Shown one piece after another: positions 1-54,017 of a stretch of 64,000 nt of DNA. The position numbers and the translations under genes are program-made. Numbering within the stretch: the stretch's first letter is position 1; every line of letters begins with the position of its first letter. A model generated the notes under the pieces. The model did no database searches. It was not told where the DNA came from and was given only the letters and a program-made list of their open reading frames with translations. The DNA comes from Acuticoccus sediminis (GTDB lineage: Bacteria > Pseudomonadota > Alphaproteobacteria > Rhizobiales > Amorphaceae), in the NCBI RefSeq assembly GCF_003258595.1, contig NZ_QHHQ01000003.1, positions 558,001 through 622,000 on the forward strand. The letters are read 5' to 3'.

Positions 1-3000
1 CAGCGGGGCACCCCGGCCCTGCCACGAGATGAGCCCGGACGACGGCGCGTCACCGGTATCCCCGTCCAGCACCGCCGGCTCGTCCGACGGGCCGGCGCCG
101 AGCGTGGCGACGTGCGGCGCGGCACTGGTGTCAACGAACTCGTGCAGGGACTCGTCGAACACCAGCGTGCCCTCCTGGATCGGCGCCATCATGTCGGCGA
201 CCTCGGCGATCGTGTCGTAGTTGCCGGAGGCGAACGCCGCCTGCAGCAGCGACTGCGTCTGCTGGAGGGCCGACATCGAGGCCGCCAGCTGATCGGCCGC
301 CGCCGGCGCGATGCTCACGCCCCGGGCGACGTTCGGAAGCTGCAGGTGCCGCGCGCCGCCGAACAGGATGTCGCCGGCCGGCGCGCTCGCCTGCGGGACC
401 GACCCGGCCGCCGCCGCACCGTCCGTGCGAGACCGAATCGCCTGCATCAGGTTGTCGAACAGGCCGGAGCTCTGCGCGATGGTGATGATCACCGGCTCCT
501 GGTCGTTCACCGTCACCGTCCCGTTCGGCGCGAACAGCCCGCCGGGGTTGATGATGCGCGGGTGATCGATGTCCTGGTTCGGCGGCGAGACGTTCGACTC
601 GGCGAAGAAGGCCGTGCCGGCGTTCACGACGACCACGTCGGTCGCGAACGGATTGTCGTCGCCCGCCGTCAGCACGATGTCGCCGTTGAAGGAGTTGGCG
701 AGCACTACGCGCAGGATGCCGTTGGTCTCCGTGACGACGATGTCGCCCGGCGCCTCGAACGCCACGTCGTCGCCGCCGGCCAGCGAACCGGACGGACCGG
801 TCGAGCCGATCCGCGTGTCCACCTCCAGGGCGTTGTTGAGCGTGCCGATGGAGGAGCCGGCACCGTGGACGTCGATGTCCAGCTCGCGGGCGAAGATATC
901 CGTCGCCGCATCGTTCTGGATGTCGACCACGGAGCCGCTCCGGGTGCGCAGCGACACGTCCTGAAGCGAGTTGATGGTCGCGACATTCATGTTGCCGACC
1001 AGCTCGTCGAGGTAGATGCCGCCCGTCCGCACACCCGCGAACGACACCGCGTTGAGGACGCCCGGCCCGTGCGCCGCCGAATCGATCTCCAGGAAGTCGC
1101 CGAGGATGCCGACGCCGGTCGCGAACGGCGCGGGGTTCTCGTCCGTCGGCAGGCCGGAGATCAGGAAGACCCCGTTGCCGGACACGTCGAGTGTCGGGGA
1201 CGACTGGACCGACGTGAAGGCGTCGATCAGGCGACCCGGCGCCGCGATGGTGACGTTGCCGGCGGTCGACTCGATGAGCGAGATCCGAAGGTCGCTCGTG
1301 CGCTCCTGCACGACGATGTTGCCGTTGGTCACGACCGTCGCGGCGCCGAGGACGTTCTGGTTGCCGCCGGCCCAGTTCACGTCGGTGGAGATGGCGAAGT
1401 TGACGGTCGTGTCCGGCACGTCGTCGACCACGACGGAGCCGTAGTTCGCCTCGCCGCCGCCGATGCTGGTGGTCCGCGTCGAGGCCGCCGTATCGCCCAC
1501 GTAGTCGAACGTCGTCGACACGTGGCCGATGTCGAGGAACCCGCCGGACCTCGCCTCCGCGAACAGGTAGGTGGAGTCGATCTCGACGAAGTCGGTCCCC
1601 AGCGCGCGCAGGATGTTGTCGATCCCCGGCGAGGAGATGTCCGGCCGGAAGTGCAGGTTGTAGATGCCGCTGCCGGGCTCGAGCGGGCCGACGGGGTTCT
1701 CCGGATCGATCCCCGGCGGATCGTAGAGGTTCACCGTGACGGTGCCCGCGTCGATCCCGTTGAAGCCCTCGCGGGTGTCGTTGACGACGACCTCGAGGTT
1801 GTCGCCGGCGGTGATGCGCTCGATCGCAACCGTCTCCGAGAAGTCGCCGGTGCTGTCCGAGTTCGGCCCGTCGGCGCGGTCCATGGCGGTGATGTCGACG
1901 TCGACGTCGCCGAGGGCGTCGATGGTCGCCTGCCAGTCCTGCACGACGCCGTCCATGTCGCGGTAGCGCACCAGCTCGATCGCGATCGGCACGCGGATGT
2001 CGAAGTCGCCGCCCTGGAAGGACGCGACGCCGCCGATGTCGCCCACCGCGTCGAGGTCGATGACGTTGGTGCGGATCAGCTCCACATGGCCGAGCGACCC
2101 GCCGGTCGGGCTCGGCACGACGTCGCTCTGGTCGGAGCGGATGTCGCCGCGCTGGTTAAGGATGCGCGTGGTGCCGAGCGGGTTCTCGATCCGGTCCGCC
2201 AGGATGACGTCGGAGACGCCCGGGACGGAGTTGTCGAGGATGTTCAGGATGTTGATGAGGGTCGGAGCGTAGTTCGGCGTCAGGTCGAACTCGAAGGTGA
2301 AGCGGGTCGCAGGCGCCGCGTCCGGATCGAGCGGCGTGTTGTTCGCCGGCACGCCCGGCTCGTTGTCCGGTATTTCGTCGACGATGACGTTGATGATTGC
2401 CCCGTCGTCGTTCTGCACACCGGAGCGGATATCGATGAAGTTGCCGACGTCGATGAGGTTCGTCACCAGATCGAGCGGCGACTCGTTGATGATGGTGACC
2501 GAGCCGAACGTCTTGTCCACGATGAACTCGGCCGCATTGCCCCAGATCTCGCCGGGGTCGACGTCGTCAAAGCCCTCGATCGCGTTGGCGTAGAACGTCG
2601 CGGTGCCGACCTCGTCGAACACGATCGGCGCGACGACGATGTCCGCCGTCGGGACCGGATCGCCGACGTCGAGGTCGAGGATCGTGCCGCCGGCGCCGAG
2701 GAGATCGACGTTCTGCTTCACCTGGATGACGCCGTTCTCGTCGACGACGAGGACCGGATCCTCCTCCGCGAGGAGCCTCACCCGGCTCTCGAAGAAGATG
2801 TTGCGGTCGGCCTCGGTCGAGGCGCTGGCCTCCGCGTCGCCGAAGTCGACGACCGCGCCGTTCTTGGTCGCCCGCGCACCGTTCGACAGACCCGACTGGA
2901 TTGCGTTCACGTCGAGGTCGTGGGTCGCGATGTCCGAGCCGAACCGGCCCTCAACCTTCGCTTCGGAGTCGACGTAGCCGACCGCCGTGGCGTCGGAATC

Positions 3001-6000
3001 GCCGCCCGCGCCGCCGAGCCGCGAGTGCGCCCGGCCGTAGTTGTTGATGTTGCTGGTGCGGGCGGTGATCGTCACCTCGTCGGAGCCCGTCGTGTCGGAG
3101 CCGGCGTCGAGGATCACCTCGGTGTGGGCCGCGGCCCGCGCGCTGGCACCGGAGTCGACGTCGGCCCCGAAGGCCCTCGCGTCGCTGTTCGCGTCCGCCA
3201 GGCCGCGCATGCTCGCGACCCGGGCCTCGATGTCCACGACCCGCGCGTCGAGCGTGCCGCCGATGACGGCGAGCGTCTCGGCAAGGTTCGGATCGGGATT
3301 GTCGTTGATGTCGTTGTCGCCGATGCGCGAGCGGGCTTCCGTCGTGCTGGCGCCGGCGAAGCCGCTGGTGCGAACGCGCGACACCGCCTCGACGTCGCTT
3401 CGACTGGTGCTGTCGACCGCGATCACGTCCTGGGCGCGCAGCGAGCCGTCGACCGTCGCGGTGATGCTATAGGTCGAGAGCGACTCGGTGCGGGCCACCG
3501 CGTCGTTGCCGAACGCGGCCTGGTTTGTGGACGCGTAGGTGCTGACGGTGGTGGAGCCGGAGGCATCGATGTCGATGTCGTCGCGCGCGACGAGCTCGGC
3601 CCCGCCCGCGATGTCGAGGGCGTTGACGTTGTCGCCGTCGGCCACCGCCGTCGTGGTGCCGAGGGTGATGCCGCCGCCCTGCGCCGCGTCCGTCGTCGTC
3701 GCGACGCTGAGGACCGAGTCGGAGGCGATGACGATGTCGTTCGCCGAGATCGCCGCGTCGCCGACGTTCAGCTCCACGTTGACGTCCTGCGCCGCCACGG
3801 CCGTCACCGACTCCGCGGACACCACGCCGCCGGAGACGCCGGTCGTCGACGCGGTGACGATGCCGTTGCCCGATGGCGCGGCGTTGAGACCGCCGGCTCC
3901 GCCGACACCGCTGAAGCTGCCGATGACGTCACCGGTCAGGTCGAGGATGAGGGCGTGCTCGCCCGCGCCGCCGGACGCGGTGAGGTCCACGCCGTCCACG
4001 CTGAAGGTGTGCGTGCCGCCCGTCAGCCCCCCGGCGTCGATGGCGATGGGGGCGCCGCCGGACGTGTTCGCGAGCTGGAAGGAGCCGGCCGCCCGGTTGA
4101 CGACGAAGTAGGACTGGCCCTCGACGAGACCGTCGATCGGTGCGTCCTCCACCGTGCGCAACCCGTAGATCGTCGGATCGTCGGCGTCGCGGACGATGTC
4201 GATGATCTCGGGCGGGACGAAGTTCATGTCGTCGTCGACGAAGCCGGTCGCCTCATCGGCGGTGCGCGCGAGGCGGATGTAGTCGGCGTCCGCCGCGAAG
4301 CCCGGCACGTTGCCGAGCGCTGCCCCGCCACCGGCGACGAAGTAGGTCTCGCCGTCGGCGAGGTCGGCTCCGCCCGCGACCTCGATCGTGTTCGGCCCGT
4401 CGGCGGTGAAGACCACCTCGTCACCGATATCGAAGGTGTGGCCGGGCACGTAGATGCGGTTCGAGCCGTCCGCCACCACCGGGTTCATCGCCCCCGGGTT
4501 CACGTCGGCGTCGACGACGCCCGCGGTGAACTCGGAGAGAGGCCCGGCGTGGTAGGTCACGACGTCGCCGTTCTCGAAGGTGTTGGCGCCCTGGATCGTG
4601 TTGGCCGACACGTCCCCGCGGTCGACGACGACGTCGGTCTCGGCGAGGGCCGGGTCGAAGAGCTTGATCGTGTTCTCGTCGATCACCGTCACCAGGTAGC
4701 GCTGGCCGTTGTTGAGCCCGCCCACCGGCGCGGCACCGTTGGAGTGGTAGTAGACCGCGTCGCCATCCTCGAAGGTGTGTCCCTCGATGGTGATGGTGTC
4801 GTTCGCCGTGTTGACCCCGCCGCCGAACGTGCCACCCAGATAGGTCGACGTGTCGTCCCGGACGACGGCGGTGTAGGTCCGGCCCTGGATGAGCCCGCCG
4901 CTGTCCTCCCCGACGAAGCCGATCAGGTCCCCGGTGTCGAGCCCGTGCGGCTGGCCGAAGTCCACGAAGTTGTTCGTGCCCGGGGCCGATTCGCCGATCG
5001 AGGGGTTGGTGGCATCGGTGGTCTGGACCGAGCCGTCGGCGAGCTGCACGATCGCGGTGCCGTGCTCGGCGCGCAGCACGACGTCGCCGGCCGCCTCGAT
5101 CTGCGGCGCTGCGCCGACCGTGAGGCCGACGTCCGCTGTCGCCGTCGCGATCGATCCCATGCTGCCGATGCTGAGGCCGCCGAAGGACGAGGCGACGGAC
5201 TTCGCGTCCGCGTCGGTGTTGAAGATCGCCACTACGTTGATGTCGCGGGTCGTCTGGATCTGCGAGCTGGAGGAGCCGAACTCGACGTTCAGCGCGCTGT
5301 CCGTATTGGCGCTGATGTTGCCGGAGTCGGAGATCGAGACCGTCGCGCCCTGCCGCCCCGCGAAGGCCGCGTTGGCGGCGCTGAAGCCGCGAGCGTCGAT
5401 GTTGAGGTCCCGCGCGCCGGCGACGCCTCCACCCGACACGTCGCCGTCGAAGACGACCAGCGTCGACCCGAAGGTGTTCACCGAGAGGTCGCTGCTGCTG
5501 ACCGCGATGCCGATCGACGCCGCGAACGAGTCCGCCGAGCCGAAGGCGTTGTTGGAGTTGCGCGCGACGATGCCGACGTCGCCGGTGTCCGCCCTGAGGT
5601 TGGCGTTCGTGCCGATGTCGATGCCGACGTCCGCGTCCGAGAGGGACGAGAGCGTCGACCCGTTGGCGGCGAGCCCCAGTCCGACCGAGGTCTGCCGGCC
5701 GTCGACGATGGCGCCGAAGCCGAGGTCCGCGCCGGGCTGCGAGGTGTCCACGAGGAAGCCGAGCGCATTGTCGAAGTTGAGCCGCGCGGCGATCGACAGT
5801 GGGCTCGCGCCGCCGGCGAAGACGTTCGTCGCGTCGCCGACGTCCACCGACACGTTGGGCGTGAACTCGGCATTGCCGTTGATCGCGCTGAGCGTCCCGC
5901 CCAGGGCGGCCGAGAAGCTCGTCGCCGTGGCGTAGGCGACGCCGCGCATGTCGGCGATGAGCTCGACCGGTCCGGCGTCGGAGGAGATCGCCGCGTCCGG

Positions 6001-18000: not shown

Positions 18001-21000
18001 GTCGTCGCCGATGGTCGCGAGCGCGTCGCCCGCCCCCACGGTGACGGCGATCGCCGCCGCGACCTCGACGCTTCCGCCCTGCGTCTCGGAGGTCGCGTCC
18101 TCGCCGGTGCCGCCTTCGCCGCCCGGGTTGCTCGTCTGGTCGGCGGCGGTCGCGTTGGCGTCGTCGATATCCGCCCCCGGCTGGGGCGTCTCGAGCGGCG
18201 AATCGGAACGCGAGTCGGCGAAGTTCGAGTTGTTGCCGATCTGCTGGTCGGCGGTCAGCGGGCCGTCCGCCCCCGCCGCGCTGCCGTTGGCGACGGTCGC
18301 CGCGGAGCTCGTCCGCCGAGCGTCCACCATGACCTCGTTCGCGGTCGCGGCGCCGGTGGAGATGTCGCGGTCCAGCATCGCGACGGCGTCGGACTCGTCC
18401 CAGCCCAGCGCCAGCGCGATCCCCACGCCCGCGCCTTCCGCGCCGTCGACGTCCGCGTCGGCGTTGGTGCCCATGGCGACGAGGCTCTGCGCCTCGACGG
18501 TGACGTCGCCGGAGAGGTCGATGGCCTCCGTCCCGCCGAGGAGGATCGCCTCGGTCACCGGCTCGACCACGCTGAGCGCGATCGCGCCGCTCCCGCCGTC
18601 CTCGCCTTCGGTTCCGGCATTGGCCTCGGTGACGACGAAGTGTGTGCTGGCCGCGACGACCGAGACGTCCTCGGCCCCCTCCACCGTCGCCGACTCGGCG
18701 ATGCCGGCGTGGGTGTCGACCCCCTCGCGCGAGAACGCGAAGGAGAGGCCGACGCCGACCGACTCGCCCGCGCTCTCCGGCTTCGCTGCGGTGAGGGTGA
18801 GGACGGGCGTCTCGGCCCGCACCAGCACCGCCGGGTCCCCGCCCGTCAGCGTCAGGGCGACGTTCTCGCCGATGTCGGCCGACGTGATCCCGTCCGCTCC
18901 GGTGAAGGCCGCCGCGGCGGCGACGCCGATGTCCCCGCCCGACGCGCCGGAGATCGCCGTCGCGCCGTGGCTGAGGAGGAAGCCCGTCAGCGAATGCTCG
19001 CCCGTGCCGGGACCGGTGATGGTGATCGCGTTGCCCGCGAGGGCGTCGGCCTGGCTCGCCGCGAGGCGCAGGCGCCCGTTCTCGACGATGGCGTAATACT
19101 CGTTCCCGTCCGTCAGTCCGCCGATGGCGTTTCCGGTGGTCTGGTAGGTGACGGGATCACCCGTCATCAGTCCCATCTCGTTGGGGAGCGGGATGAACGT
19201 CCCGTCGGCGCCGGGGTCGAAGGTGACGTCAGCCGGGGCGTTGGCCTCCGGATCGCCGGCATCGACGGCCCCGCGGACCAGGACGTGCTCGCTGCCCGTC
19301 CCGACGCTCGTCAGGTCGATCGTCTCGCCGTCGGCCGCAGCATTCGCGTCCTGCGCCAGGCCGATCCGCCCGTCGCCCTCGAGGACCACGAAATAGGTTT
19401 CGCCGTCCGTCAGTCCGCCGATGGCCGAGCCGGCGCCGGCGTCGTAGGTGACCTCTTCGCCGGTGGTGAACGGCGTGGACGGGAAACCGACGAAGATCGT
19501 GTCGTCGCCGAGGTCCACGACGGGACCGCTCGTGGGCGAGATCGACACGGTGCGTGCCGGCGCACGGGCGCTCACGGTCACGTCGTCCGCCGTGACGTCT
19601 GCCTCCTCGATGAGGGCGACGTTGTTCAGCGTCGAGTCGCTGACCGCGACCGCGGCCGCGATGGTGGTGCCGTCGGTCTCGTCGGCCGCGCTGGCGTCGG
19701 CGACGGCGGCGGCGTCCGCGTGCTGAAGGCCGCGCACGTCCACCGCTCCATCCGCCTCGACGCTCGCCGGCGTGCCGGAGACACCGCGGATCGCCGCGAG
19801 CGCGGAGGACTGGAAGAGCGTGATGCCGACCGCCGCGGCGACGGTGACCGCACCGTCGGAGGTGGAGGTGTCCGGGGAGGACGCGCTGGTGCCGCCCTCC
19901 GCATTCGCGTTCGTCACCTGGCCGTCGACCTGGGACTGGACGTCCGCTCCGCCGCCGCCCTCTTCGGGCGCACCCGTCGCGCTGGCGACGGCCCGGCTCC
20001 GCGCCGACGTCACCATGTTCGTCTGGACGAGGACGTCGCCCCCGCTCACCACGCCGCCTTCGATCAGCGCGCTGCCGCTGTCCTCAACGATGGCGAGGCC
20101 GAGGACGGTGCCGATGGCGGCGTCTTCGGCGTCCGCGCTCCCCTCGGCGTCGGCCTTCGTGTCGGCGGTGAGCACGGTGCGCACGGTCACGTCGCCGTCG
20201 CTCTCGAGGCTCGCCGTCTGCGCGATGGCGGCGGCCGCGGTATTGACCACGCTGGTCACCGCAACGACCGGGGTGATGGCGGTGCCGCCCTCGACCCCGC
20301 CGCGCGCCTGCGCGAGTGCCTGATGACCCGCGAACGCGTCGACACGCGCGACCTCGGCCCCCGTCACCGTGACGTCGTCGCCGACGGTCGCGGTCGTTGC
20401 CGTGTTGGAAGCGTCGATCGCGAACGAGGCGCCGAGGCCGAAGGTGTCGCCGCCGGACTGCGCCGCGTCGGCGATCGCGGAGGTCGAGACATCCGGCTGC
20501 GCGCGCACCACGAACGGGTCGGGGCCGGACAGGGTGACGCTGGTTCCGTCGGTGATCCCGGCCGCCGTCGTCACCGTGGGACGGACGAGGGCGAACGAGC
20601 CGGCGACGCCCACGTCGCCGTCGCTGGCGCCGGAGGTCGCCTCGGCAGTGAAGGTGTGCGTGTCGTCCCCGCTCGCGGGGAAGGTTGCCGCGCGCACCAC
20701 GAGCCCCGATGCCATGACGCTCCCGCCGGAGACGCGCGCCGTGCTCGTCACCGGGCCGGAGACGATGGCGACCGCCGCGCCGACCGTCGCGGAGCCGCCG
20801 TCGCTGACGGCCTCGCCCGACGCATCGGCCGCGCCGTCCACGTTGCTGCGCGAGAGGACGCGCACGGGCGCGTCGGCGACGATGTCGGCGTCCACCGACT
20901 CGGCCGTCAGCGCCACCGTCCCGAGGTCGAGCGCGATTGCCGCCGCCACGCTGACCGGTCCGTCCGCCGTCTCCGCGTCGGGGACGGATGTGGTGGACGA

Positions 21001-24000
21001 GCCCGTTCCCGAAGTGCGCCGCGAGGCGGCGTCGCCGTTGGCCGCGCCGAGCGCGCCTTCGCCGCGCTGGTCGACGGTGTCGGGCGCGTCGCCCTCCTGC
21101 TCCGAGCCGCCGGCGGACGCCTCCGCGCCGGTGTCGGCGTCGATGGCGCCGAGGACGTGGACCGTCACGGCGTCTGCGGTGGTGTCGCTGGCAAGCCGCG
21201 CGTTGGCGATGTCGTCGCGCGACGTCAGCGCGAGGGAGACGCCGACGGCCGCGTCGTCGCCCGTGCTCTCGCCGACGGCGTCGGTGTCGACCGAGGTCGT
21301 GTGGTTGGCGCGCACGAGGACGTTCCCGCTGGCGCTGATCGGATCCGTCGCGTCGACGAGCGCATCGGTCTGGGCGCGCAGGATCGCGATCGCCGCAACG
21401 GGGGTGAGCGCGGTGCCGCCCTCCGCCCCGCCGTTAGCGCGGGTGAGCGCATCGTAGACGCCGCTCGCGCGCACAGTGACGTCGGTGGGACTGCCACCGA
21501 GCGCACCGCTGCCGGTGATCTCGGCGACCGTGAGGTGATCGGTGATGGTCGTCGCGACGGACGCGCCGGCGCCGACGGAGGTGTCGTCGGTCTCGTCCTG
21601 CGCGGCATCGGCTAGGGCGCGGGCGTCGCTGCGGCCCGTGGCTTCCACGACCACCGCACCGGACGCGTCCGCCTCGCCCGCGAGCCGGGCGAGGTGCCCG
21701 CTCTCGCCGAGGTCGATGGCGACGGCACCGGCGAGGCCGAGATTGCCGCCGCTCGCTCCCGACGTCGCCCCCGCGACCGAGCGATGCATCCTGTCGGCGA
21801 GGCGGTTGCCGTTGCCGCCACCGGCGGACGTGAGCGTCACCGCCTCGCCCGCCAACGCGCCCTCGAGGCTCCCCGCGAGGCTGATCGCGCCGTCGTCGTC
21901 GACGATGGCGAAATAGGTCTCGCCGTTCGTCAGGCCGCCGATGGGATCGCCGCCGGCCTCGCGATAGACCAGCGCATCGCCCGTCCTCAGCGCGTCTCCG
22001 CCGTTGATGATCAGGCGCAATGCGTCGCTGGCGGGGTCGAAGTCGAAGTCCTCCATCCCGGTATCGGTGAGCGTATGGCCGGTGCCTGCGCCGGTGGAGG
22101 TGAGGTCGATCTCCTCGCCGTCGCCAGCGTCCATCTCGCTCGATGCGAGCTGGAAGAGGCCGCCGCCGAGCGCGATCGCGTAGTAGGTCGCCCCGTCGGA
22201 CAGGCCGCCGATCGCGGTCCCGCCGCCGTCGCCGTAGACGAGCGCGTCGCCGGTCGCGATCCCGGTGCCGGGGCCGAGGAAGACGGTGTTCGCGGCAATG
22301 TCCACGACCGGCACGTCGGTGGCCGAGACGCGCAGGTTCCGCTGCGCCATCTCCGCCTCGACGCTCACGTCGGTGGCGGAGACGCTGGCGCCTTCTCCCA
22401 CCAGCGCCTCGTTGTGGACCTTGCCCTCGTTGATCGCGACAGCGACGCCGACCGAGCCGGCTCCGCCGTTCGCCGCGCTGGCGTCGGCATCGGCGGCGCT
22501 GTCCTTGTTGGAGATCGCGCGGACGGTGACGGCACCCGCCGAGACGACGGCCACGCCGTCGCCGATCTCGGCCACGGTCGCACTGTCGACGAGGTCGATC
22601 GCCACCGCCGCGGCGAGCGCGAGCTGGCCCTCGCTGGTGGAGGCGTCCGGCGTCTGGGTCTGCGAGGAGGACGACCCGCCGCGCGCGTCGGCCTGATCGT
22701 TGGCGAAATCCTGCTGGTCCTGGTTGGCGGCGTTGACGTCGCCGGACGAGCCGCTGTCGCTGTCGCCGGCCGCGCTGGCGCTCGACAGGGCACGGCTGCG
22801 CACCAGCCCGGTCGAGACGATGGAGAGCGCGCCCGTCGCCGTCGCATCGCGCATCAGCGAGGCGGAGTTGCCCTCGTCGTTGAGCACCATCGCGAGCGAG
22901 GCGCCGATCGCCGCGTCCGCCCCTTCCGCATCGCCCGTCGCGCGGGACAGCGTGTCGCCGTCCTGGCGCGACATGACGCTGATCTCGCCGCCGGACAGCG
23001 GGTCGCCGGTGCCGATCAGCGCCGTCGTCGTGTTCGTGTTGATGGTGATCGCCGCCACCGGCGTCGCGACCACGTCCCCGCCTTCAGCAGGTCCCGACGC
23101 CGTCGTCGTCGCGTCGTGTATTGACTCGGCGTTCAGCGTAACGTCGCCTGCGCCGGTGACGCCCGCGCCGTCGGCGATCTCGGCGATCGTGAGCGTGTCG
23201 AGGATCGTCAGCGCCACCGAGGCGCCGATCCCGAAGGCCGTGCCGCTCTCGGCGTCCTCGCGCGGGACCGCGGCGGTCGAGACGTCGGTCTCCGCCTCGG
23301 CGTTCAGCGTCAGGTCCGCACCGCCGAGGTCTACCCCGCCGCCACCCCCGTCGGAGACGCGCGCCGCAACGACACTCGACACCGAATGGATCGACAACGC
23401 GCCGGCGATGCTGGTGCTCGCGTCGTCGCCGGTGCCGGACGTCGCCGTCAGCGAGAAGGAGTTGCCGGCGTCCATCGCCGCGTCGAGCGAGACGCCGCCG
23501 CCGGCCGCGATGGTGCCGCCGTCGAAGAGGTCTATGGTCACGCTGGACGCGATGGTCTGGAGCCCCACGGCGATGCCGACGCCGGTGCCCGCCTCCGTCG
23601 TGCTGCCGTCGGCCGTCGTCGCCACCGCGTCGCTCGACATCGCGGTCATTTCGAGCGCGCCGTCGGTCGCGACCGCCCCGTCCGTGTCGAGGACGACGGA
23701 CGTTGTCGGGCGGTAGTCGGAGATCGCGACCGCGGCGGCGAAGCCGACGTTGCCGTCCGCCGTCTGCGCGCGGTCGCCGACGTCGCCGTCCTGGTTCGGA
23801 TCCTCGAGCCGCTGGTTGCTCTGGCTCGCCCCGCCGGCATCGTCCGCTCCGCCCTGCGTGGAGAGCGACGTGGTCGAGACGTCCGACGTCAGGGTCGCGC
23901 TCAGGGTGATGGAGTCGGGGCCGTCTCCGCCATTGGCGCCGATCGAGGTGCTGCCGGCGAGGGCGACGCGCGTGTCGGTGCTGACTTCGGTCACCGCGAG

Positions 24001-26013
24001 CGTCGCGCCGACCGCGCTCGCCTCCGCGCTGCCGTCCGCCCGCGTTTCGACCTCGATGTCGCTCGTCGCAGTCAGCGCCACCGCGCCCGACGCGGAGATG
24101 GTCGTCGCGCCCGCCGCCGTGACCTCCGCTCCGCCGCCCACGACGACGACGGTCGCCGCCGCGTCGGCCGAGGCGTCGGACGTGTCGTCCCCGTCCGCCG
24201 CGTCCGCGAAGGAGGCGTCGATGGTGACGCCGGCATCCATCGTCACGTCCGCGCCGCTGATGCTCGCCCCGTCGAGGGCGATCTCGGCGGTCGGCAGCAG
24301 GGTCAGCAGCGAGGCGTCCAGCGATGCGCCGAGATCGCTCGGCGTCACGGTCGGTGCGGTCGTCGCCGACGCGTTCAGATCGACGACGCCGGTGGAGGTC
24401 AGCACGCCGCTGACCTCGATGCGCGCCGTCGGCAGGGCCACGAAGAGCCCCTGCAGGACCGGGTCGGGGATGAGCCCCATCGTGTCGATCGCGCCGTCGT
24501 CCTCCGCCACGGCGTTGAGGGTGATGGCGGACGCGGTGATCGACCCGGAGACCTCGATTTCCTCTGAATTGACGGTGACCGTGCTGGTCGTGACGAGGTT
24601 GCCCTCGACGATCACCACGTCGTCGCCGTCCTCGCCGTTGACGATGAGCGATGCGCTCCCGAGGTTCACGTCCTCGATCGTCAGCCGGTCGCGCGACAGG
24701 AACGGAATGCCCTCGTCCTCGCCGAGGTTGATCGTGAGGCTCGACGAGGGCACCGCGAACTCGACGCTCTCGAACGTGATGATCTCGAACGGATCGGTCG
24801 AGGCGATCGTCAGCGTGCCGCCGTCCTGGGACAGCGTCGCGGTATCGCTCATCCCCGACAGGTCGATGACGCGGTCGGTGGTGTTCGTGTTGTCCGTGAT
24901 GGGTTCCAGGCCGTCGTAGACGAGGACCACCCCGTCCCGGTTGACGGTGCCGGAGGTCGGGCCCGTCGCGGTGTAGACGACGCTGTCGAAGGTCCCGCCG
25001 TCGAAGACCATAACGTCGTAGCCGCCATCGCCCCCGTCCAGCCCACCGGTCAGCGATCCGGTTGCGCCGACGACGAAGACGTCCTCGTTGTCCGCCGCGC
25101 CGACGAGCGACTCGACCCCGACGAACGCGCTGCCCGCGACCGTGCCGGTGTCGGCCCCGTCCACCGTCCAGGTCGTATCGACGGGCGGTCCCGTCAGCAC
25201 ATCGTGCCCCGCGCCGCCCGAGATGGTCACGCGCGCCGCGGTCACCTCGTCGAGGGCGCCGAGGGCGATCGTGTCCGCGCCCGCGCCGGCCTCGAGCGTG
25301 AGGTCGCCGCCGGGTCCGGACGCGTCGAAGTCGATCAGGCCGGGCGCGCGGACGCCGACGCCGTCCTCGATCCCCATCAGTGACAGGGCGTGACCCGCGA
25401 CGCTGGTGTCGGCGAAGATGCGGCTGCCGGCGGTGGTCTGATCGTCGACACGCTCCACTCCGCCCAGCGTGACGGCGAGCGCGTCGCCGCCTCCGGCCAG
25501 GTCGAGCGTCCCGTGCCCGGTGCTGTCGGTCGCGAGGCGCACGCCGTCCAGCCTCCCGTCGACGGTCAGCACATCCTCCCCCGCACCACCGGAGAACGTG
25601 ACCGGCGTGACGAAGCCGTCCGAGAAGTCGATCTCGAGCGTGTCGTCGTCGGACGTGCCGAGCACGGAGACGACGCCGACCCGCTCCATCGACTGGGCCG
25701 CCACCTCGATACCGGAGGTGCGGTCGGTGACGTGCAGGAACTGTGTGAGGTTGTCGTAGTGGAGGGAGAGGTTGTTGCCGAGGTCGCCCATGTCGAGGTT
25801 GAGCGGGGCGATATCGGCGGAGAGCAGGTAGCGCGGTTCGAGGGCTTCGATGTCGAAGCCGGTCGGCGGGGCGGTGGCACTCTCCCTCGACCGAAGCCGT
25901 CGTGCCTTCAGGAAATGAGGGTGGACCGGCCTGTCTCCCCGCCCTTTGCCCTTGCGCCACCTAAGCTTTTTGGGGCCAGCGTCGCAGAATACGGAGCCGA
26001 ACGGAGTAGACAT
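1..26013 (-). CDS. Giant LEPR-XLL beta-repeat protein, 3' end outside window
   Basis: The frame starting at ATG 26013 reads without a stop to the left edge: at least 8,671 residues, well over 800 kDa. A GAGGGA ribosome site lies a few bases upstream of this ATG; the ATG four bases further upstream is out of frame. The N-terminus is basic and has no ordinary signal peptide. Residues 58-65 read LEPRYLLS, the hallmark of the LEPR-XLL family of enormous bacterial repeat proteins. GGAGxDxL-like calcium-binding motifs follow (residues about 130-230), then thousands of residues of VTVxAxD / ADIGDGxxV beta-strand repeats. The chain is rich in A, D, G, S, T and V. I noticed only about three Cys, and Lys is rare after the N-terminus. 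The last 2.5 kb in view is less repetitive. Export and surface adhesion or matrix binding are inferred from family type; the C-terminal export signal would lie beyond the window. Confidence 0.93.
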   Translation of the reverse strand, partial: MSTPFGSVFCDAGPKKLRWRKGKGRGDRPVHPHFLKARRLRSRESATAPPTGFDIEALEPRYLLSADIAPLNLDMGDLGNNLSLHYDNLTQFLHVTDRTSGIEVAAQSMERVGVVSVLGTSDDDTLEIDFSDGFVTPVTFSGGAGEDVLTVDGRLDGVRLATDSTGHGTLDLAGGGDALAVTLGGVERVDDQTTAGSRIFADTSVAGHALSLMGIEDGVGVRAPGLIDFDASGPGGDLTLEAGAGADTIALGALDEVTAARVTISGGAGHDVLTGPPVDTTWTVDGADTGTVAGSAFVGVESLVGAADNEDVFVVGATGSLTGGLDGGDGGYDVMVFDGGTFDSVVYTATGPTSGTVNRDGVVLVYDGLEPITDNTNTTDRVIDLSGMSDTATLSQDGGTLTIASTDPFEIITFESVEFAVPSSSLTINLGEDEGIPFLSRDRLTIEDVNLGSASLIVNGEDGDDVVIVEGNLVTTSTVTVNSEEIEVSGSITASAITLNAVAEDDGAIDTMGLIPDPVLQGLFVALPTARIEVSGVLTSTGVVDLNASATTAPTVTPSDLGASLDASLLTLLPTAEIALDGASISGADVTMDAGVTIDASFADAADGDDTSDASADAAATVVVVGGGAEVTAAGATTISASGAVALTATSDIEVETRADGSAEASAVGATLAVTEVSTDTRVALAGSTSIGANGGDGPDSITLSATLTSDVSTTSLSTQGGADDAGGASQSNQRLEDPNQDGDVGDRAQTADGNVGFAAAVAISDYRPTTSVVLDTDGAVATDGALEMTAMSSDAVATTADGSTTEAGTGVGIAVGLQTIASSVTIDLFDGGTIAAGGGVSLDAAMDAGNSFSLTATSGTGDDASTSIAGALSIHSVSSVVAARVSDGGGGGVDLGGADLTLNAEAETDVSTAAVPREDAESGTAFGIGASVALTILDTLTIAEIADGAGVTGAGDVTLNAESIHDATTTASGPAEGGDVVATPVAAITINTNTTTALIGTGDPLSGGEISVMSRQDGDTLSRATGDAEGADAAIGASLAMVLNDEGNSASLMRDATATGALSIVSTGLVRSRALSSASAAGDSDSGSSGDVNAANQDQQDFANDQADARGGSSSSQTQTPDASTSEGQLALAAAVAIDLVDSATVAEIGDGVAVVSAGAVTVRAISNKDSAADADASAANGGAGSVGVAVAINEGKVHNEALVGEGASVSATDVSVEAEMAQRNLRVSATDVPVVDIAANTVFLGPGTGIATGDALVYGDGGGTAIGGLSDGATYYAIALGGGLFQLASSEMDAGDGEEIDLTSTGAGTGHTLTDTGMEDFDFDPASDALRLIINGGDALRTGDALVYREAGGDPIGGLTNGETYFAIVDDDGAISLAGSLEGALAGEAVTLTSAGGGNGNRLADRMHRSVAGATSGASGGNLGLAGAVAIDLGESGHLARLAGEADASGAVVVEATGRSDARALADAAQDETDDTSVGAGASVATTITDHLTVAEITGSGALGGSPTDVTVRASGVYDALTRANGGAEGGTALTPVAAIAILRAQTDALVDATDPISASGNVLVRANHTTSVDTDAVGESTGDDAAVGVSLALTSRDDIANARLASDTTADAVTVHVLGAIDADTGAEASAGGSEQEGDAPDTVDQRGEGALGAANGDAASRRTSGTGSSTTSVPDAETADGPVSVAAAIALDLGTVALTAESVDADIVADAPVRVLSRSNVDGAADASGEAVSDGGSATVGAAVAIVSGPVTSTARVSGGSVMASGLVVRAATFPASGDDTHTFTAEATSGASDGDVGVAGSFALVRPTVTTAAGITDGTSVTLSGPDPFVVRAQPDVSTSAIADAAQSGGDTFGLGASFAIDASNTATTATVGDDVTVTGAEVARVDAFAGHQALAQARGGVEGGTAITPVVAVTSVVNTAAAAIAQTASLESDGDVTVRTVLTADTKADAEGSADAEDAAIGTVLGLAIVEDSGSALIEGGVVSGGDVLVQTNMVTSARSRAVASATGAPEEGGGGADVQSQVDGQVTNANAEGGTSASSPDTSTSDGAVTVAAAVGITLFQSSALAAIRGVSGTPASVEADGAVDVRGLQHADAAAVADASAADETDGTTIAAAVAVSDSTLNNVALIEEADVTADDVTVSARAPARTVSISPTSGPVVDLGDDTIFVGFPSTPFTTGEEVTYDAGAGSAIGGLTDGETYFVVLEGDGRIGLAQDANAAADGETIDLTSVGTGSEHVLVRGAVDAGDPEANAPADVTFDPGADGTFIPLPNEMGLMTGDPVTYQTTGNAIGGLTDGNEYYAIVENGRLRLAASQADALAGNAITITGPGTGEHSLTGFLLSHGATAISGASGGDIGVAAAAAFTGADGITSADIGENVALTLTGGDPAVLVRAETPVLTLTAAKPESAGESVGVGLSFAFSREGVDTHAGIAESATVEGAEDVSVVAASTHFVVTEANAGTEGEDGGSGAIALSVVEPVTEAILLGGTEAIDLSGDVTVEAQSLVAMGTNADADVDGAEGAGVGIALALGWDESDAVAMLDRDISTGAATANEVMVDARRTSSAATVANGSAAGADGPLTADQQIGNNSNFADSRSDSPLETPQPGADIDDANATAADQTSNPGGEGGTGEDATSETQGGSVEVAAAIAVTVGAGDALATIGDDRVVDADDDVRVRALNDADATTIAFGTALTTEGGTAVGAAVASNVVSGDAAARIGNGAEITGSTVTVLGATSNGERNEIRAVALAGGGATQMGEGEDSSAGGAGAAAINIYSGGRTAGIGDDATITAETGDLVVRGRHDFGVQAIAGAGALAIGDEGTSVGAGVTFNRVDTDASATIGTDGLIDVDDDLVVDASTDIAVLELSVLGLTQTGQEFTALAVGAGIGSGADAGAGSAIINVFAVDTLARIGAGTGIVAGGDVTVSAEDTTPITDFAGALATSLEGVGVGVGLDVTVLTKSTVAQIEGGTSAANATSIEAGGNVIVEATSEEDIFILSANLGAGESTSAAGAANVLVVTSETMALLGNVPADDPDAPDPGDPVDGSIVVAADGSVLVAADSTTLMDVYAGTLGASLSGSAAGISVSVVVDRDVTRAGIGGGAVVDALGTETVDAPTSEFGSDGQQGAESVRGVAVVATGYTDLTDLAIGASGSLGQDNSGEDNSETDGGTAVGIALSTAVAVLRGQTKATVGEGARINENDAGRSPNQRIVLRAADEVNIDNDAGSGTFAYGGDATVGGAVSVNDVDRAVWARAFGDNVLRAANGISLTATSANNIDTTTVGVAGTVQSGDSEGEENFDFAGAGSVAVTLVDGETLAQVRSPATVETPGALEITAEDHSVIDTDAGGAAATIAADSGATQGAIGASVAYNEFNYDVMASIRNAEIEADDAVTVSALNAAELEALSIAGAIAGSNDSDAFGGAGSAAVNRAEGATRALVTGGTLLTDGDVDVSAADTMSADADAGSAAVAVATNGGDLGAIAVDAAVAINRITSNTTAAVINVATLEGDALTISALSDQAVTGFALGIAGALEAGDDSVLGLAGAGSGVGNTIASSAAARLNGSSVTANSDDVTLEAADTSTIEGQAGAVDISFAVGDGDNVGVGLGIAVVDNEITNSAIAQANGSDIATPDNVVVDALGDSDISGSAFGIGLTVAAGDGTAVAVNATGAVILNDIANVTRAAIVDSSPASPETVDAGDAVTVSAADTGTVGASAVAGIATIAIGGDTSGNGSAAVAVADNVVNNTVEALVEDVDVTSGDDVSVTADSETAIDVDAVSVTVAFTGSDSAQISVSVGVSRASNTIGTTATAAVRDADVSAGGPVSVIANDDSEIVANIVAVSVSAGLSGEGGGTVNVAAAVAENVVGTTTVAEVVASGIEAEDLITVSASSTAMIDVVGVGASVGVAIGGSSGAVNVAGTGTGAAARNTIASTVRASVEDGSVLDVLGNGADIFVTATDESTIQADVVAASVSVAVGGTTVNFTLAIAVSIAENTVMNTVQAVVDDATLDADGNVAVTALGDREVDVSGSSAAISITAGSGTVNFGVSVTVALATNIIGGSVEALVSDADADINPALDRHIAAGDGVLVTAADESSIDAVNDSTAVAVTLGSGAVTFGAAASAAVAENVVTTEVRARIDNSVVDSGDEVSVTASNDVTVDATTVAVTLTVAAGLGTFSGAFGGAGARSTNTLSGVTEAVIGTGSVVTAEDEITVTADETAAVDADTVAASISGSVGPTIGVSISVSVSLAENALSGVVTAGITDSVAESTGDGITVEANGAGSITATTVAVSASLTASGGFSLAGTGAGATANNTMSRNVSAIVENSDLDADGPVSVAASDVSSIDASVGSFGASLAVGSSGAVSINIVVATATNTLNGSVDAHVSNSTVDTTDGEVTVAASANNQIESATRAIAMNVTASGAVAVTVSGSGAVATNTMSNTVTAAIDGGSVVRAPDEITVSAENLSPVDARVFASTLSITASSGASIGFNVAATRATNTNNGTVLASIDGSDVASEGDSVAVTAVSDNDTTAISTAATMSLQAASGVALGGAGTGADARNTTNNVTQASITNGSVVEADGDVTVDAIDTSSFLTQLIAATVNVSGSGGAAVSVSIAVTRALNTLGASTIATIDGSDVTSLDGDVIVDADNVNEIQATAVSMALSVGGSGGVSVGGAGTGAVARNTITSLVEASVYDSVIDAAGEVSVTATDQSTVDALLLSVSVSVTGSGAAAVNIAIAATTALNSMSGTTLATIDGSTVTAPDGVTVDARLSNSIEADGIATAVAISAAGGGSIGGAGTGVVARNIMNNAVEASVRDGSTITTDEGVLVRARDLSDIDATLTAVSAGIAASGGAAIALTVALSLARVDYNTTVDAVVEGSTITAGDDIDVTARSFGTVAVDAVGIGISLGGAGGVSISGSVAGARAVVSATNRTAAEVIDSVLTTDAGVDVTARDNSEVELDVVGVAVSVAGSAGVSATLSISFAEARTTWGGDVIAAISGSTVDAQDTVLVDAQGNASIDAEGTGVSVSISVSAGLTISGAGTGASIVNVVGQDVIASIDDGSDVSSADDSVTVNAEDDMDVDASALAAAVSASISLGASFSFAIAAARATNTFDGMTRAIVSDSAVAGNGDVAEVLASSTSLVDAQADAIALAISVSFVPGAFSAAGAVASNSSNRLVEAAVEDGSDVFSLNDLTVEATDTSDYDACVLALSLSLGFGAALGVGEATNDIAGDVVARLEDSTAVSQNGDVLVLSSANLDVLSSASIAAVTLGGGGAGTGSRATTNLNRDVDAHAVSSDITADGDLYVDADADLIARTETIGIAGALDFAVSAMESVANVSGATRAYLDGDMTIDVDDDVFVTADSVARALPNGLNVAVGANAGAVVLMSATVARDTLAFVGGTQVDPLDDALLLPVAIDMGNARLTLDAGATLEADAAPANLAFSIANGVAVTMTEATIAGRTESFIGENVTLTAGELDMTADSDEEAFANNVTVAVSLGHTVDVSHATATITSDTAVYIGTRAGETPRPASTTTVTLAPGGGRDGRATLAATSERYSEATISGGSGAGIRVSEYEATADTGGSVRAYVGENTDLTAENLAITADAPQMEAQAASNTIGIALLGGVSVIIPEARVTAVVEAFIGNETGTAATSTATPAIAINGSGNGNGDVIVDADAVVLANSEIVCGEGSLGFDVSVLRPRAEASAEVRAFVREGVDIMAEELHVEAGNSDDRINLDATASIFTAGFSAAGSVDTIDIETVVDGTVEAFIGRPIGTPLNAVFTQVITVDEPIDVQAWSDMNAVSDVFNGTASFGATIALVQTDAEVSGVTRAYVGQATRVVADGLDIDADGAYEALATTRLVGISGVASGAIQSSRAVVSGLVDAHVGAPAGTNPSTNLATLVLDGDLTVNAFATMVASPVATGVGISGGITIGGYTLEAVVSGEVLAYVGEGVDVTADSLSILADTGAMDATADMVSVGISGVGAATVVSTTATVSASVEAFIGASRARDAANVMTAIDVGGGEVTVVADSTMNAVSSTAGLSVSGLAFDIFEPTAIVSGNVSAFVRDGVDMAAGALDVSAGEIGDDRVVFNAVATTVLANVTLGLGVGIGTAVATTEGTAEAFIGAAAGRVRGGMAGAQLDVSGDVDVTALSDIIADANADGGGGSAGVNVTLFEPRATAGGLTRAYAGDGLDIESASLGIIADGNADADADTFAISFAGAVTVQGINPIAFASHDVEAFVGEALGSTRNVGADGQAEISIANGGGNPGDVTVSATADTAADTLVTSISGSFAANITQIRSTSIIAGATRAYVGEETVLSADDVDVDASETTAQANATMSSFGGAGVANVSVLHAEAIASRTTETFVGDNSELNLGDGNLSLTAVTDTGDPLAVARIDSAGVSGAVDVNAVDVIARVGILDDGLTDSPRSATRSSIGDGVLIDANNVTVDADAVVNAEATNANPLRIGGAVQVSSLVVTGSVDHETRASVGDDVLMMLTGDLDVTADAVSTATPSVTNVSASLAVSFTASTVTTLIESETFAGIGNDGRISADSVDVLANAEHDADASVDAIGGSLLIAIGSLVANATDTGSVRAEIGNAVGGAAQTSVATTGAAGITVSAQLDGRVTAQPNLATIGLLGSGGAVTSNAINDATVGAGFGPDAAISSDAGPVELIADMRGVAYATATSFSAALGGTLSAINGNAEFTPNVSVDVGDATNVFAGGASPLSIAARLNFDNALGFLVDTSQPGADLGFGAIVDGRQTSVGLGLAANGSTLSSLSDADVGIDIGTNANLRADTGDVGIVARNSNNAFGSADSFAASIGIAVSSSDLSVNTFGSTLVVFDGDVSGGGVAGARDLNIDARGFSAANAAFAGRQGATVSISDSGNISANTDSALNVEFGSSSSQIQTTRDINVVAIFNTDADAKSVASSFGGLSIGSMGSIATATADVGLTVGAAPQIEAAGDVVLRAEHGTAIVQLADGSVQTTDATNPSIGESAPGTNNFVDFGQPHGLDTGDLIGFVGEDSGGLIQGRTYTAVVRDDTSTYLGGTFGGGVNTANDTITIEGHTFEDGDAVYYHSNGAAPVGGLNNGQRYLVTVIDENTIKLFDPALAETDVVVDRGDVSANTIQGANTFENGDVVTYHAGPLSEFTAGVVDADVNPGAMNPVVADGSNRIYVPGHTFDIGDEVVFTADGPNTIEVAGGADLADGETYFVAGGGAALGNVPGFAADADYIRLARTADEATGFVDDDMNFVPPEIIDIVRDADDPTIYGLRTVEDAPIDGLVEGQSYFVVNRAAGSFQLANTSGGAPIAIDAGGLTGGTHTFSVDGVDLTASGGAGEHALILDLTGDVIGSFSGVGGAGGLNAAPSGNGIVTASTTGVSGGVVSAESVTAVAAQDVNVELNVGDAAISANDIVIASDSVLSVATTTDAAQGGGITLGTTTAVADGDNVNALDIAGGAELVARDDIDIDASGSTTVSTYASTNQAAFGNDAVARTESLSTYSITATVDGSLRAQDVIAVDSTSRSDVEAVSRVRTSGFAGASTTEARSRIGDNDINDNPDPNLAETLAVIGGTLDARVVDIEARVASMRGLADANSDARAFGADVDSGASARAAAHTEVILDAGSDTTGSDEVTITARTSNINNYGRAHSRLGGAGGDSDATAVGYVDSEAKVEGRFGSDIATHDLDVNAIQSGLSNGARATKNGAVVDFGDAEASASTEADRNIFFESRVRLLAEEDPVLVVDENGVIQVKQNVDLLGAGGTILDLDVGDPVPTADIVVAPIVFDEVGTATFYANAIEGFDDVDPGEIWGNAAEFIVDKTFGSVTIINESPLDLVTNLIDVGNFIDIRSGVQNDDGAIINVIVDEIPDNEPGVPANNTPLDPDAAPATRFTFEFDLTPNYAPTLINILNILDNSVPGVSDVILADRIENPLGTTRILNQRGDIRSDQSDVVPSPTGGSLGHVELIRTNVIDLDAVGDIGGVASFQGGDFDIRVPIAIELVRYRDMDGVVQDWQATIDALGDVDVDITAMDRADGPNSDSTGDFSETVAIERITAGDNLEVVVNDTREGFNGIDAGTVTVNLYDPPGIDPENPVGPLEPGSGIYNLHFRPDISSPGIDNILRALGTDFVEIDSTYLFAEARSGGFLDIGHVSTTFDYVGDTAASTRTTSIGGGEANYGSVVVDDVPDTTVNFAISTDVNWAGGNQNVLGAATVVTNGNIVVQERTSDLRISLIESTAGNVTIAAPGRLIDAFTSVQSSPTLDVSGNGVFLISGLPTDENPAPFATGVGILGDFLEIDSAAHGPGVLNAVSFAGVRTGGIYLDELVGNMNVATINSLQDVSLRTRSGSVVDIQNDAATDIFARELDIDVHGAGSSIGTLNNALEVDTRIGSTGPSGSLAGGDDVAFEAPGDIVVTETNGILRVVLANSFNGDIVLTAGDDNPFATDVVVVNAGTAFFAESNVSPPNQDIDHPRIINPGGLFAPNGTVTVNDQEPVIITIAQSSGLFDNLMQAIRSRTDGAAAAGSVPQASAPAGDILFGGARHLQLPNVARGVSIAPAAADQLAASMSALQQTQSLLQAAFASGNYDTIAEVADMMAPIQEGTLVFDESLHEFVDTSAAPHVATLGAGPSDEPAVLDGDTGDAPSSGLISWQGRGAPL
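4010..4990 (-). repeat. Cluster of four IGGL/NG/YF-like modules
   Basis: Four more divergent relatives of the 75-80 residue module occur here. Cores read GGLIQGRTYTAV, VGGLNNGQRYLVTV, ADGETYFVAGG and IDGLVEGQSYFVV. The last is followed by GGLTGGTHTF. With the pairs near 22 and 19 kb this makes eight copies in view. Confidence 0.55.
6870..9990 (-). repeat. Alternating AYVGE / EAFIG repeats
   Basis: About 18 units spaced roughly 180 bp (60 residues) apart. Odd units contain RAYVGEGVDVTA-like cores (variants RAYLDG, RAFVREG, RAYAGDG). Even units contain EAFIG followed by an A/G/T/R loop (EAFIGRP, EAFIGAS, EAFIGAA, EAFVGEA). The strict alternation means the true period is a dyad of about 120 residues, the same size as in the neighbouring 10-15 kb repeat block, though the sequence differs. 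Confidence 0.7.
10300..14700 (-). repeat. Two-phase repeats of about 61 residues
   Basis: Units of 61-62 residues (about 184 bp) follow one another, each with a core like VTVxAxDxSxIDA, a run of small residues, then a strand ending in A-x-IDGSxV. Two flavours alternate. One carries GGAGTGAxARNT, the other AAxVNIAxAxTxALNT or similar. Two units therefore make a dyad of about 123 residues. The regular period and the repeated Asn-Thr and Asp-Gly turns suggest a beta-solenoid or stacked beta-sandwich stalk (inference). Confidence 0.7.
18990..19535 (-). repeat. Second pair of IGGL/NG/YF modules
   Basis: Two more copies of the module seen near 22 kb. The cores read IGGLTDGETYFVV and IGGLTDGNEYYAI, each preceded by TGE/TGD-x-V-TY and followed by a strand ending in LA and a G-x-G-x-H-x-L tail. 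Their position in the second long interval mirrors the first pair, which supports duplication of a whole block. Confidence 0.65.
21840..22330 (-). repeat. First pair of IGGL/NG/YF modules
   Basis: Two adjacent modules of about 75-80 residues. Each has the pattern TGDALVY, a short Gly-rich stretch, IGGL-(S/T)-(D/N)G-x-TYYAI or TYFAI, then a strand ending in LAS/LAG, then an E-x-(I/V)-x-LTS-x-G-x-G segment. They sit in the first long interval of the super-repeat. I do not recognise a named domain. Confidence 0.65.
25819..25842 (-). other. LEPR-XLL motif of the giant protein
   Basis: These codons give LEPRYLLS, preceded by FDIEA and followed by ADIAP. The match to the LEPR-XLL pattern near the N-terminus of very large repeat proteins fixes both the reading frame and the family. 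The basic segment before it (GPKKLRWRKGKGRG and following) is typical of the family and is not a standard Sec signal. Confidence 0.85.
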
Positions 26014-26646
26014 GGCATTCCCTCAACTAATTCACCGCCGTGACCGGAAGCCGCCATTCGACGACTCCCCGCCCCACGGCGGTGCTGCGCTCTAATAACT
26101 GTGGCGCCTTTGTACTTATGTATACGTTGTTTAGACCTAGCTTCCGGCAGGATTGTGTCTGAAGGCCATCAACTCATCGCTAGCTCGATCACGTCTGCAC
26201 TCGAGAGGAAGTTGCTAAATTTACTGCCGCTTTCCGCAAAACGTGTGCACTCGCGTCACGGCTTCGTGATGTTCATTGCCATGTTTCAATAATCACATTC
26301 TTGAAATCTGGCGTCTTAGAGGCGATTAGAAGGCAGGTCTGGCGCACCCGCCACATCCGGCCCGAGCGAGGCGCACCACGGCGCGGTCGCCGACACCGGG
26401 ACGGGCGCCGAAGGCTACGTCGAAGCTGCAATTTTCGCCTTAGGCGGGACCTGGAGCGAATCAGCCGCGAATCCGCCGAGCGCGTCGCACAGGCGCGGGG
26501 GTTCGCATCATGTGTGAGGATTCCGGCAAAACAGGCGCCTCTAAATTGCTCGCGGCCCGAACACATTTCTGCCAATATTCTACCATTACGCGTACCCACA
26601 CACCTGACAGGGGTACTGCGCAACCTCGTTCTCAGTGGAGCCCCTT
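26014..26646. promoter_or_regulatory. Divergent intergenic region between giant gene and cellulase
   Basis: About 630 bp with no convincing gene. It is clearly AT-richer than its surroundings, with runs such as TATGTATACG, GCTAAATTTAC and CAATAATCAC. It must hold the promoters of both head-to-head genes, but I could not identify a convincing -35/-10 pair. A small inverted repeat (TCACG-GCTT-CGTGA) lies near 26255. AT-rich DNA ahead of surface-protein genes is a usual target of MucR/Ros regulators, and a mucR gene lies at 50569-51012; control by it is inference only. Confidence 0.5.
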
Positions 26647-38588: not shown

Positions 38589-39655
38589 GAGCCGCTCCCC
38601 TCGCCGCACTGGCGGCCCTCGCGCTGGCGCTCACCGCCTGCCAGGAGGAGGAGGCCGCAGCGCCCGCGCCGCCGCGCCCCGTCGTCTCCGAGATCATCAG
38701 CCTCGCCCCGGTCTCGACCATCTCATGGGTCGGCACGGTCGAGCCCAAGGTCGAGACGGACCTCGCCTTCGAGGTGACCGGCCATGTGGTCGACCGCCTC
38801 GTGGACGTCGGCGACGTCGTCGACAAGGGCGACGTCATCGCCCACCTCGATCCCCAGGAGCTTCAGGCCGCCGCGCGGTCGGCCGAGGCGAGCCTTGCCC
38901 AGGCCGAGGCGCAGTTCGTCTCCGCCCGCGACAATGCCGAGCGGACCAGAAAGCTCGTCGAGCGGGACGTCGAATCCCAGGCCAACCTCGACAACGCCAA
39001 CCAGCAGGTCGCCGTCGCGCAGTCCGAGGTCGACCGCGCCAAGGCCCAGCTCGCCCAGGCGCGCGACCGGCTCGACAAGGCAACGCTGAAGGCGAGCGCC
39101 CACGGCGTGATCACCGCGGCACCGGTCTCCCCCGGCGCCACCGTGTCGGCAGGCGAGGCGGTCGTGCGCGTCGCGAGCACCAAGGAGCTCGAGGCCGTGG
39201 TCGATCTCTCCGAGCCGGACCTTGCCACCATCGACGCCGACGCGCAGTTCACCGTCGCGCTCGAGGCGGCGCGCACCGTCACCACCGGCGGCCGCCTCGC
39301 CTACATCGAGCCCGTCGCGGAGGACACCACCCGCACCCGCCGCGTCCACATCGCGCTCGACGATCCGCCGCCGGCCTTCCGCCTCGGCTCGCTCATCTCG
39401 GCGCGTCTGCGCACGCAGGCCGATGCCGTCCTGTCGGTCCCGACATCGGCGCTCTTCGAGCGGGACGGCGCGGCGATGGTGTGGCGCGTCGAGCGGCCGA
39501 GCGGCAGCGTCGGGGCGGTGCCGGTCGAGCTCGGCGACGCCTTCGGGCCGCGCACGCAGCTCGCCGGCGGTCTGGCGGAAGGCGACGAAATCGTGACACG
39601 CGGCGTCCACAGCCTGGAGGATGGCGAGGTCGTCGGCGAGAGGACGGCACTGTGA
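38585..39655 (+). CDS. RND efflux adaptor subunit, lipoprotein (second)
   Basis: 356 residues. It starts with a lipoprotein signal peptide whose lipobox is LTAC (Cys20), so it should be anchored in the periplasmic leaflet of the inner membrane. It has the same fold as the preceding gene: the lipoyl half DRLVDVGDVVDKGDVIAHLD, an Ala/Gln-rich coiled coil (about 95-160), the second half LKASAHGVITAAPVSPGATV and a beta-barrel. Two different adaptors with one pump gene suggest a mixed adaptor hexamer, as in some TriABC-like systems. It overlaps both neighbours by four bases. Confidence 0.9.
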   Translation: MRAAPLAALAALALALTACQEEEAAAPAPPRPVVSEIISLAPVSTISWVGTVEPKVETDLAFEVTGHVVDRLVDVGDVVDKGDVIAHLDPQELQAAARSAEASLAQAEAQFVSARDNAERTRKLVERDVESQANLDNANQQVAVAQSEVDRAKAQLAQARDRLDKATLKASAHGVITAAPVSPGATVSAGEAVVRVASTKELEAVVDLSEPDLATIDADAQFTVALEAARTVTTGGRLAYIEPVAEDTTRTRRVHIALDDPPPAFRLGSLISARLRTQADAVLSVPTSALFERDGAAMVWRVERPSGSVGAVPVELGDAFGPRTQLAGGLAEGDEIVTRGVHSLEDGEVVGERTAL

Positions 39656-54013: not shown

Positions 54014-54017
54014 ACCG

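Follow-up and report, generated by a model that had tools for sequence, protein, structure and literature searches.

The giant LEPR-XLL protein of Acuticoccus sediminis shares one gene cassette with SecA, HlyD, and M50 components and is their likely cargo

What does a bacterial gene of more than 26 kb encode, and by which route could such a product leave the cell? The question is raised by the left end of the window (the whole stretch of 64,000 nucleotides that was analyzed, contig coordinates G000:C3:558001-622000), where a single minus-strand frame starts at position 26013 and runs to the edge. The reading that we favor, with a probability of roughly 0.7, is that the giant protein is an acidic, beta-rich repeat fiber of the cell surface or the medium, that it is exported by a SecA-driven machine that needs no ABC exporter and is encoded directly downstream, and that the six genes form one cassette.

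The giant gene and its product

The gene and the parts of its product lie as follows (window coordinates unless stated otherwise).

26019..26024, minus strand: ribosome-binding site GAGGGA, 5 nt 5' of the giant ATG (sequence)
1..26013, minus strand: giant LEPR-XLL gene, its last 27 bases at contig C3:557974-558000 (open frame and flanking contig)
25852..26013, minus strand: basic N-terminal leader, amino acids 1 to 54, without a hydrophobic signal-peptide core (hydropathy)
25789..25851, minus strand: LEPR-XLL (LEPR-8K) domain, amino acids 55 to 75 (NF012209, 28.5 bits, cutoff 17)
10309..14781, minus strand: most regular repeat array, amino acids 3745 to 5235, units of 61 to 62 amino acids (periodicity and repeat alignment)
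22..30, minus strand: C-terminal ISW, amino acids 8662 to 8664, a weak family-wide I-x-W signature (tail comparison)

An earlier note on this DNA had described an unbroken minus frame from the ATG at 26013 to the left edge, preceded by a ribosome site, and both descriptions held: no stop occurs between the ATG and window base 1, and GAGGGA is found at 26024-26019. The flanking sequence, in which the note proposed to look for the stop, supplied it at contig C3:557974, 27 bases past the window edge (window start, C3:558001), so that the gene is complete with 8,679 codons plus stop, and the "at least 8,671 codons" of the note stands as a lower bound. In random sequence of the same make-up, about 152 stops would be expected over the frame and none was observed (log10 P = -67). 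The GC contents at codon positions 1, 2, and 3 (0.67, 0.53, and 0.94, respectively) give a strong coding-frame signature, and the remaining five frames contain 8 to 337 stops across the gene. At the DNA level, the repeats of the gene proved diverged, with merely 2- to 3-copy scraps detected; because they are so diverged, a frame created by the assembly, through collapsed or invented repeats, is unlikely.

The protein has 8,679 amino acids and a molecular mass of 848 kDa, and it is rich in Ala (16%), Gly (12%), and Val (11%) and poor in Lys (0.2%). The note's acidic, nearly cysteine-free chain was confirmed by an isoelectric point of 4.05 and three Cys residues in 8,679, at positions 10, 5215, and 5695. 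Its third structural claim, a clean LEPR-XLL motif, was confirmed as well: a search against the LEPR-XLL families placed LEPR-8K near the N terminus at 28.5 bits (cutoff 17), where FDIEALEPRYLLSAD makes up amino acids 53 to 67. In the NCBIfam search, only LEPR-8K and LktA_tand_53 were matched, and the Pfam search over 8,671 amino acids, up to an E value of 0.1, returned no family, RTX calcium-binding repeats included. A hydropathy scan of the first 120 residues found no hydrophobic core of a signal peptide, the highest 15-residue value being 1.1. A protein search of the genome contigs with the first 200 amino acids found no relative, because just short motifs are conserved.

Genes of this length are rare among bacteria in general, as the note had it, but within the LEPR-8K family they are ordinary, with frames of 4,000 to 19,000 codons being common. 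LEPR-8K was present in 41 of 398 genomes of the phylum, where frames of 4,000 to 15,000 codons were common, and the longest open frame extended over 19,427 codons (58 kb) without a stop (G529:C115, match at 112865-112924, minus strand). With 8,679 amino acids, the giant studied here is a mid-range, average-sized member whose size is not special. It has the features of the family, namely, an N-terminal LEPR-XLL motif above the cutoff and a giant, repetitive, acidic chain, and no defining difference from it.

The nested repeats that the note had seen resolve into units of 61 to 62 amino acids with a double period of 123 amino acids, strongest between amino acids 3700 and 5300 and weak at both ends. 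The two halves of the protein matched the 53-residue repeats of LktA_tand_53 (NF012206) at 209.2 and 108 bits (cutoff 50), in 19 and 13 stretches, respectively. The 53-residue repeats are what the giant shares with the filamentous proteins of this family; its strongest array has periods of 61 to 62 and 123 residues, and we claim no toxin activity for it. A stretch of four units modeled from the giant's own repeats, with an alignment of six rows, was all-beta with a mean pLDDT of 90.8. From this model, a beta-rich rod is likely for the giant. Foldseek and VIA-align gave no confident match of the repeat model to solved structures; the best matches, which were not confident, had Z scores of 5 to 6 (SufB/SufD beta-helix, CsgA fibril, and FHA). 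An extracellular filament or matrix protein, as the note proposed, is plausible in view of the filamentous LktA-type repeats, the all-beta repeat model, and the operon with export genes, and from these we infer a location outside the cell.

The C terminus gave less guidance. Neither a type I secretion signal nor a C-terminal anchor, both of which the note had suggested looking for, was found: the giant contains no Pfam domain, and no ABC exporter lies beside the gene. The tripeptide I-x-W occurred in 29 of 49 giant tails, compared to 13.9 ± 2.9 in shuffled tails, in a set where some frames had been assigned on the basis of adjacency and not of a LEPR motif; we rejected it as a C-terminal signal because it is too patchy. 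BLAST of the whole giant against the C-terminal parts of other giants gave no match, and BLAST of its last 650 amino acids gave weak stretches of 28 to 30% identity.

Five export genes and a block that comes and goes as a whole

Downstream of the giant gene, five genes follow on the same strand, all left of the window and assigned by domain search; together with the giant gene, they fill a block that was delimited by comparison with congeners.

C3:556057-557925, minus strand: GAF-HlyD
C3:553884-556040, minus strand: PqqD-M50-HlyD fusion
C3:553049-553813, minus strand: SapC
C3:551086-553056, minus strand: truncated SecA, 656 amino acids
C3:550262-551089, minus strand: 275-amino-acid HlyD adaptor, the third HlyD
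1..26685 in the window (contig about C3:550185-584685), no strand: 34.5-kb presence/absence block, part of it inside the window

The gaps from the giant gene through GAF-HlyD, M50, SapC, and SecA to the last HlyD are 48, 16, 70, -8, and -4 bp, which makes an operon-like run. The SecA of the cassette matches PF07517 (DEAD) and has kept the P-loop/second motor and the cross-linking domains. It aligns only to residues 20 to 600 of bacillar SecA, and since the alignment ends near residue 600, it appears to lack the helical wing, the two-helix finger, and the C-terminal tail, which we take to lie in the part beyond. Its score of 480 against the SecA equivalog (cutoff, 800) sets it apart from canonical full-length SecA, and it is also far below the SecA2 cutoffs.

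The M50 protein has the features expected of a site-2-type protease of the M50 kind, with HExxH and a distal Asp motif in predicted membrane helices. The HExxH and N-x-N-P-L-x-x-x-D motifs (H212, E213, H216, N306, N308, P309, and D314) were invariant in 50 sequences, with a Pfam M50 score of 27.0 that is just under the cutoff of 27.2. A PqqD-like domain was matched in it (PF05402, 24.7 bits; cutoff, 23.4), and 10 of 11 M50 homologues had the same match at an E value of 0.1. Its C-terminal part was modeled as an adaptor fold (pLDDT 87.8; Z scores of about 14 to MacA and MexA). A likeness of the N-terminal domain to GdmN (VIA-align Z score of 10.4) was set aside, and the PqqD assignment rests on Pfam. 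The genome contains a single full-length M50-HlyD. M50-like stretches were also observed within longer frames (each above 1,700 codons), at G000:C1:179448-180152 and G002:C28:157912-158625.

Among the cassette genes there is no gene for an outer membrane channel of the OEP/TolC kind; OEP matches lie elsewhere in the genome, on C3 near 139 kb and on C4 and C15. No ABC exporter was found at the locus; the ABC genes that the tested flanks contain are grouped with genes for sugar-binding proteins and for permeases of uptake systems.

The distance between the cellulase and dehydrogenase genes that border the block is 34.5 kb here versus 330 bp and 249 bp in two congeners (G004 and G002, respectively). 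The block holds the giant gene and its five export partners and no other genes; all six are missing together in both congeners and thus behave as one unit. LEPR-8K was found in none of seven congeners and in just two other genomes among the nearest 100, and the gene studied here is the only LEPR-8K gene of its genome. The M50 component was likewise absent in all seven congeners, save for one weak partial match. At the block ends, no direct or inverted repeats were found beyond a match of 11 to 12 bases at chance level, and neither an Rfam nor a tRNA scan found a match in the window, so that it holds no tRNA-borne integration site. The right edge of the block falls at a GH5 cellulase gene with CBM2 and Calx-beta domains (window 26635-29403, plus strand), of which the congeners have a diverged version.

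The export set and the giants across the phylum

In the sample of 398 genomes of the phylum, with own-type M50-HlyD defined by a score of at least 430 bits, LEPR-8K was found in 41 genomes, M50-HlyD in 39, and both in 32 (Fisher P = 2.7e-32). At the genus level, the numbers were 24, 23, and 18 of 213 genera, respectively (P = 6e-17). Shared descent could account for part of this co-occurrence. The M50 component occurred without a detected LEPR gene in seven genomes, and nine genomes with LEPR had no own-type M50.

The composition of the set was recurrent. Among 80 M50 loci in named genomes, GAF-HlyD was present in 77, SecA in 75, the small HlyD in 63, DUF3467 in 29, and SapC in 19. For 58 of the M50 loci, enough upstream sequence was available: a frame of at least 1,500 codons lay directly upstream on the same strand in 30 and anywhere in the locus in 41, and in 17 there was no giant frame within the stretch covered. 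Eight loci had a LEPR motif at the start of the big frame beside the export set; when four of them were rescored, three passed the LEPR-8K cutoff and one (L126) fell just short of it (16.1; cutoff, 17). In many other genomes as well, genes for the export components follow LEPR-8K giants, often with a DUF3467 gene or SapC. The DUF3467 protein, of about 100 amino acids, is conserved just before GAF-HlyD where SapC is absent from that place (for example, L045:3960-4301, L046:4381-4695, L050:7822-8121, L051:7787-8089, and L052:7853-8131).

Next to the genes for MLD[GA]-type LEPR proteins, there was a relative of the cassette without SecA, consisting of OEP/TolC, two HlyD, and M50-HlyD genes (L056:3977-10052, L057:2135-7969, and L068:5769-8147, the last stretch covering just OEP and one HlyD). 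At least two of the nine LEPR genomes without own-type M50 (G547 and G644) belong here, with TolC, two HlyD, and M50 genes beside the LEPR protein and no SecA found there; in a third genome with this LEPR type (G596), TolC and HlyD genes lay in the stretch covered.

A possible export route and its alternatives

Because the giant gene and the SecA/HlyD/M50 set occupy one removable 34.5-kb block, the LEPR-XLL giants are likely the cargo of this machine, an assignment that we regard as well supported. We picture the route as follows. The giant, having no Sec signal peptide, would be addressed by its N-terminal LEPR-XLL segment, whose recognition would perhaps fall to the PqqD-like domain of the M50 fusion. 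In place of an ABC exporter, the truncated SecA would provide the ATP-driven push, and the polytopic M50-HlyD protein would be the inner membrane path or its gate, with cutting of the leader as a possible second role. The periplasmic conduit, leading to a TolC-type channel encoded elsewhere, would be built from GAF-HlyD, M50-HlyD, and the 275-amino-acid HlyD, and the giant would end as a fiber at the cell surface or in the medium.

In 2015, Kamneva, Poudel and Ward reported a secondary SecA_DEAD locus of this kind, with SecA_DEAD, M50, GAF, and HlyD proteins whose role was called "completely unknown" (PMC4452313). SecA was suggested there as a substitute ATPase and M50 as a possible pore, an OEP/TolC gene was a feature of some loci only, and in Methylobacterium the downstream genes were scarcely expressed in exponential growth (PMC4452313). 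Both loci have a secondary SecA, M50 with HlyD, GAF-HlyD, and a further HlyD in one run, in the order GAF-M50-SecA-HlyD that is also found in Methylobacterium extorquens AM1 (PMC4452313); the locus described here has in addition a likely LEPR giant as cargo, a PqqD domain, and a SapC gene. LEPR, PqqD, and SapC are not mentioned in the main text of that paper (PMC4452313).

Giant and export set are thus of known kinds, and the link between them is apparently new; we found no report of it in the open-license literature, although one may exist. Two orphans appear to be matched: a widespread giant family for which we found no export route described and a widespread SecA/HlyD/M50 set. If the match is true, it defines the cargo of the orphan locus, suggests LEPR-XLL as an address tag, and allows direct tests of how a single polypeptide, which may reach about 19,000 residues, is pushed through two membranes without an ABC exporter. 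We also put forward, tentatively and as less likely than not, that Gram-negative bacteria have a distinct secretion system for which LEPR-XLL serves as the export address. In it, a truncated SecA would stand in for the ABC ATPase, the PqqD-M50-HlyD protein would bind and cut the LEPR leader and form the inner membrane path, the cargo would have 4,000 to 19,000 residues, and a SecA-less TolC-HlyD-HlyD-M50 version would serve the LEPR...MLD[GA] proteins.

Gram-positive bacteria are known to have accessory SecA2 systems that handle large repetitive proteins. The cassette resembles these in that an additional SecA is encoded next to a very large, repetitive, probable surface protein; it differs in its shorter SecA (which stops near residue 600 in bacillar SecA numbering), its HlyD adaptors, and its Gram-negative host. 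Together with the strong SecA homology of the cassette protein, this precedent speaks for an unlikely alternative, in which the giant would pass through the ordinary SecYEG channel, driven by the secondary SecA, with the HlyD and M50 proteins coming in at a later, periplasmic step as outer membrane conduit, quality control, or sensor. The N terminus of the giant has no signal-peptide-like hydrophobic core, however, and the alignment leaves the cassette SecA without the helical wing and two-helix finger region, the parts that SecA uses with SecY.

Somewhat less probable again is that the giant is an RTX-like adhesin of type I secretion, using an ABC exporter encoded elsewhere while the neighboring SecA and HlyD proteins serve something else. 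Large adhesins often leave by type I secretion, and HlyD-type adaptors as found at this locus are typical of it. Against it, the giant has neither RTX nor any other Pfam domain, the ABC genes in the tested flanks form sugar-type uptake sets, and the export set tracks the LEPR giants across genomes and is missing with the giant in the congeners. With HlyB/HlyD/TolC systems, the locus shares the HlyD-type adaptors and, in SecA-less relatives, an adjacent TolC-type OEP protein; it has no ABC exporter, its ATPase being SecA-like and its membrane part M50-like. Very improbable, finally, is a giant that stays unexported, as a cytoplasmic protein or a relic frame that stays free of stops through high GC and strand bias: a GC content of 71% in the gene does lower the frequency of stops, but the missing 152 stops, the codon-position signature, the curated cutoffs passed by both the LEPR motif and the repeats typical of the family, and the operon position all argue against it.

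Outside the block, the window contains two tandem RND-type adaptor genes (37404-39655, plus strand), with the pump gene presumably next, and proton-antiporter genes of the Mrp/Mbh kind (52406-57372, minus strand).
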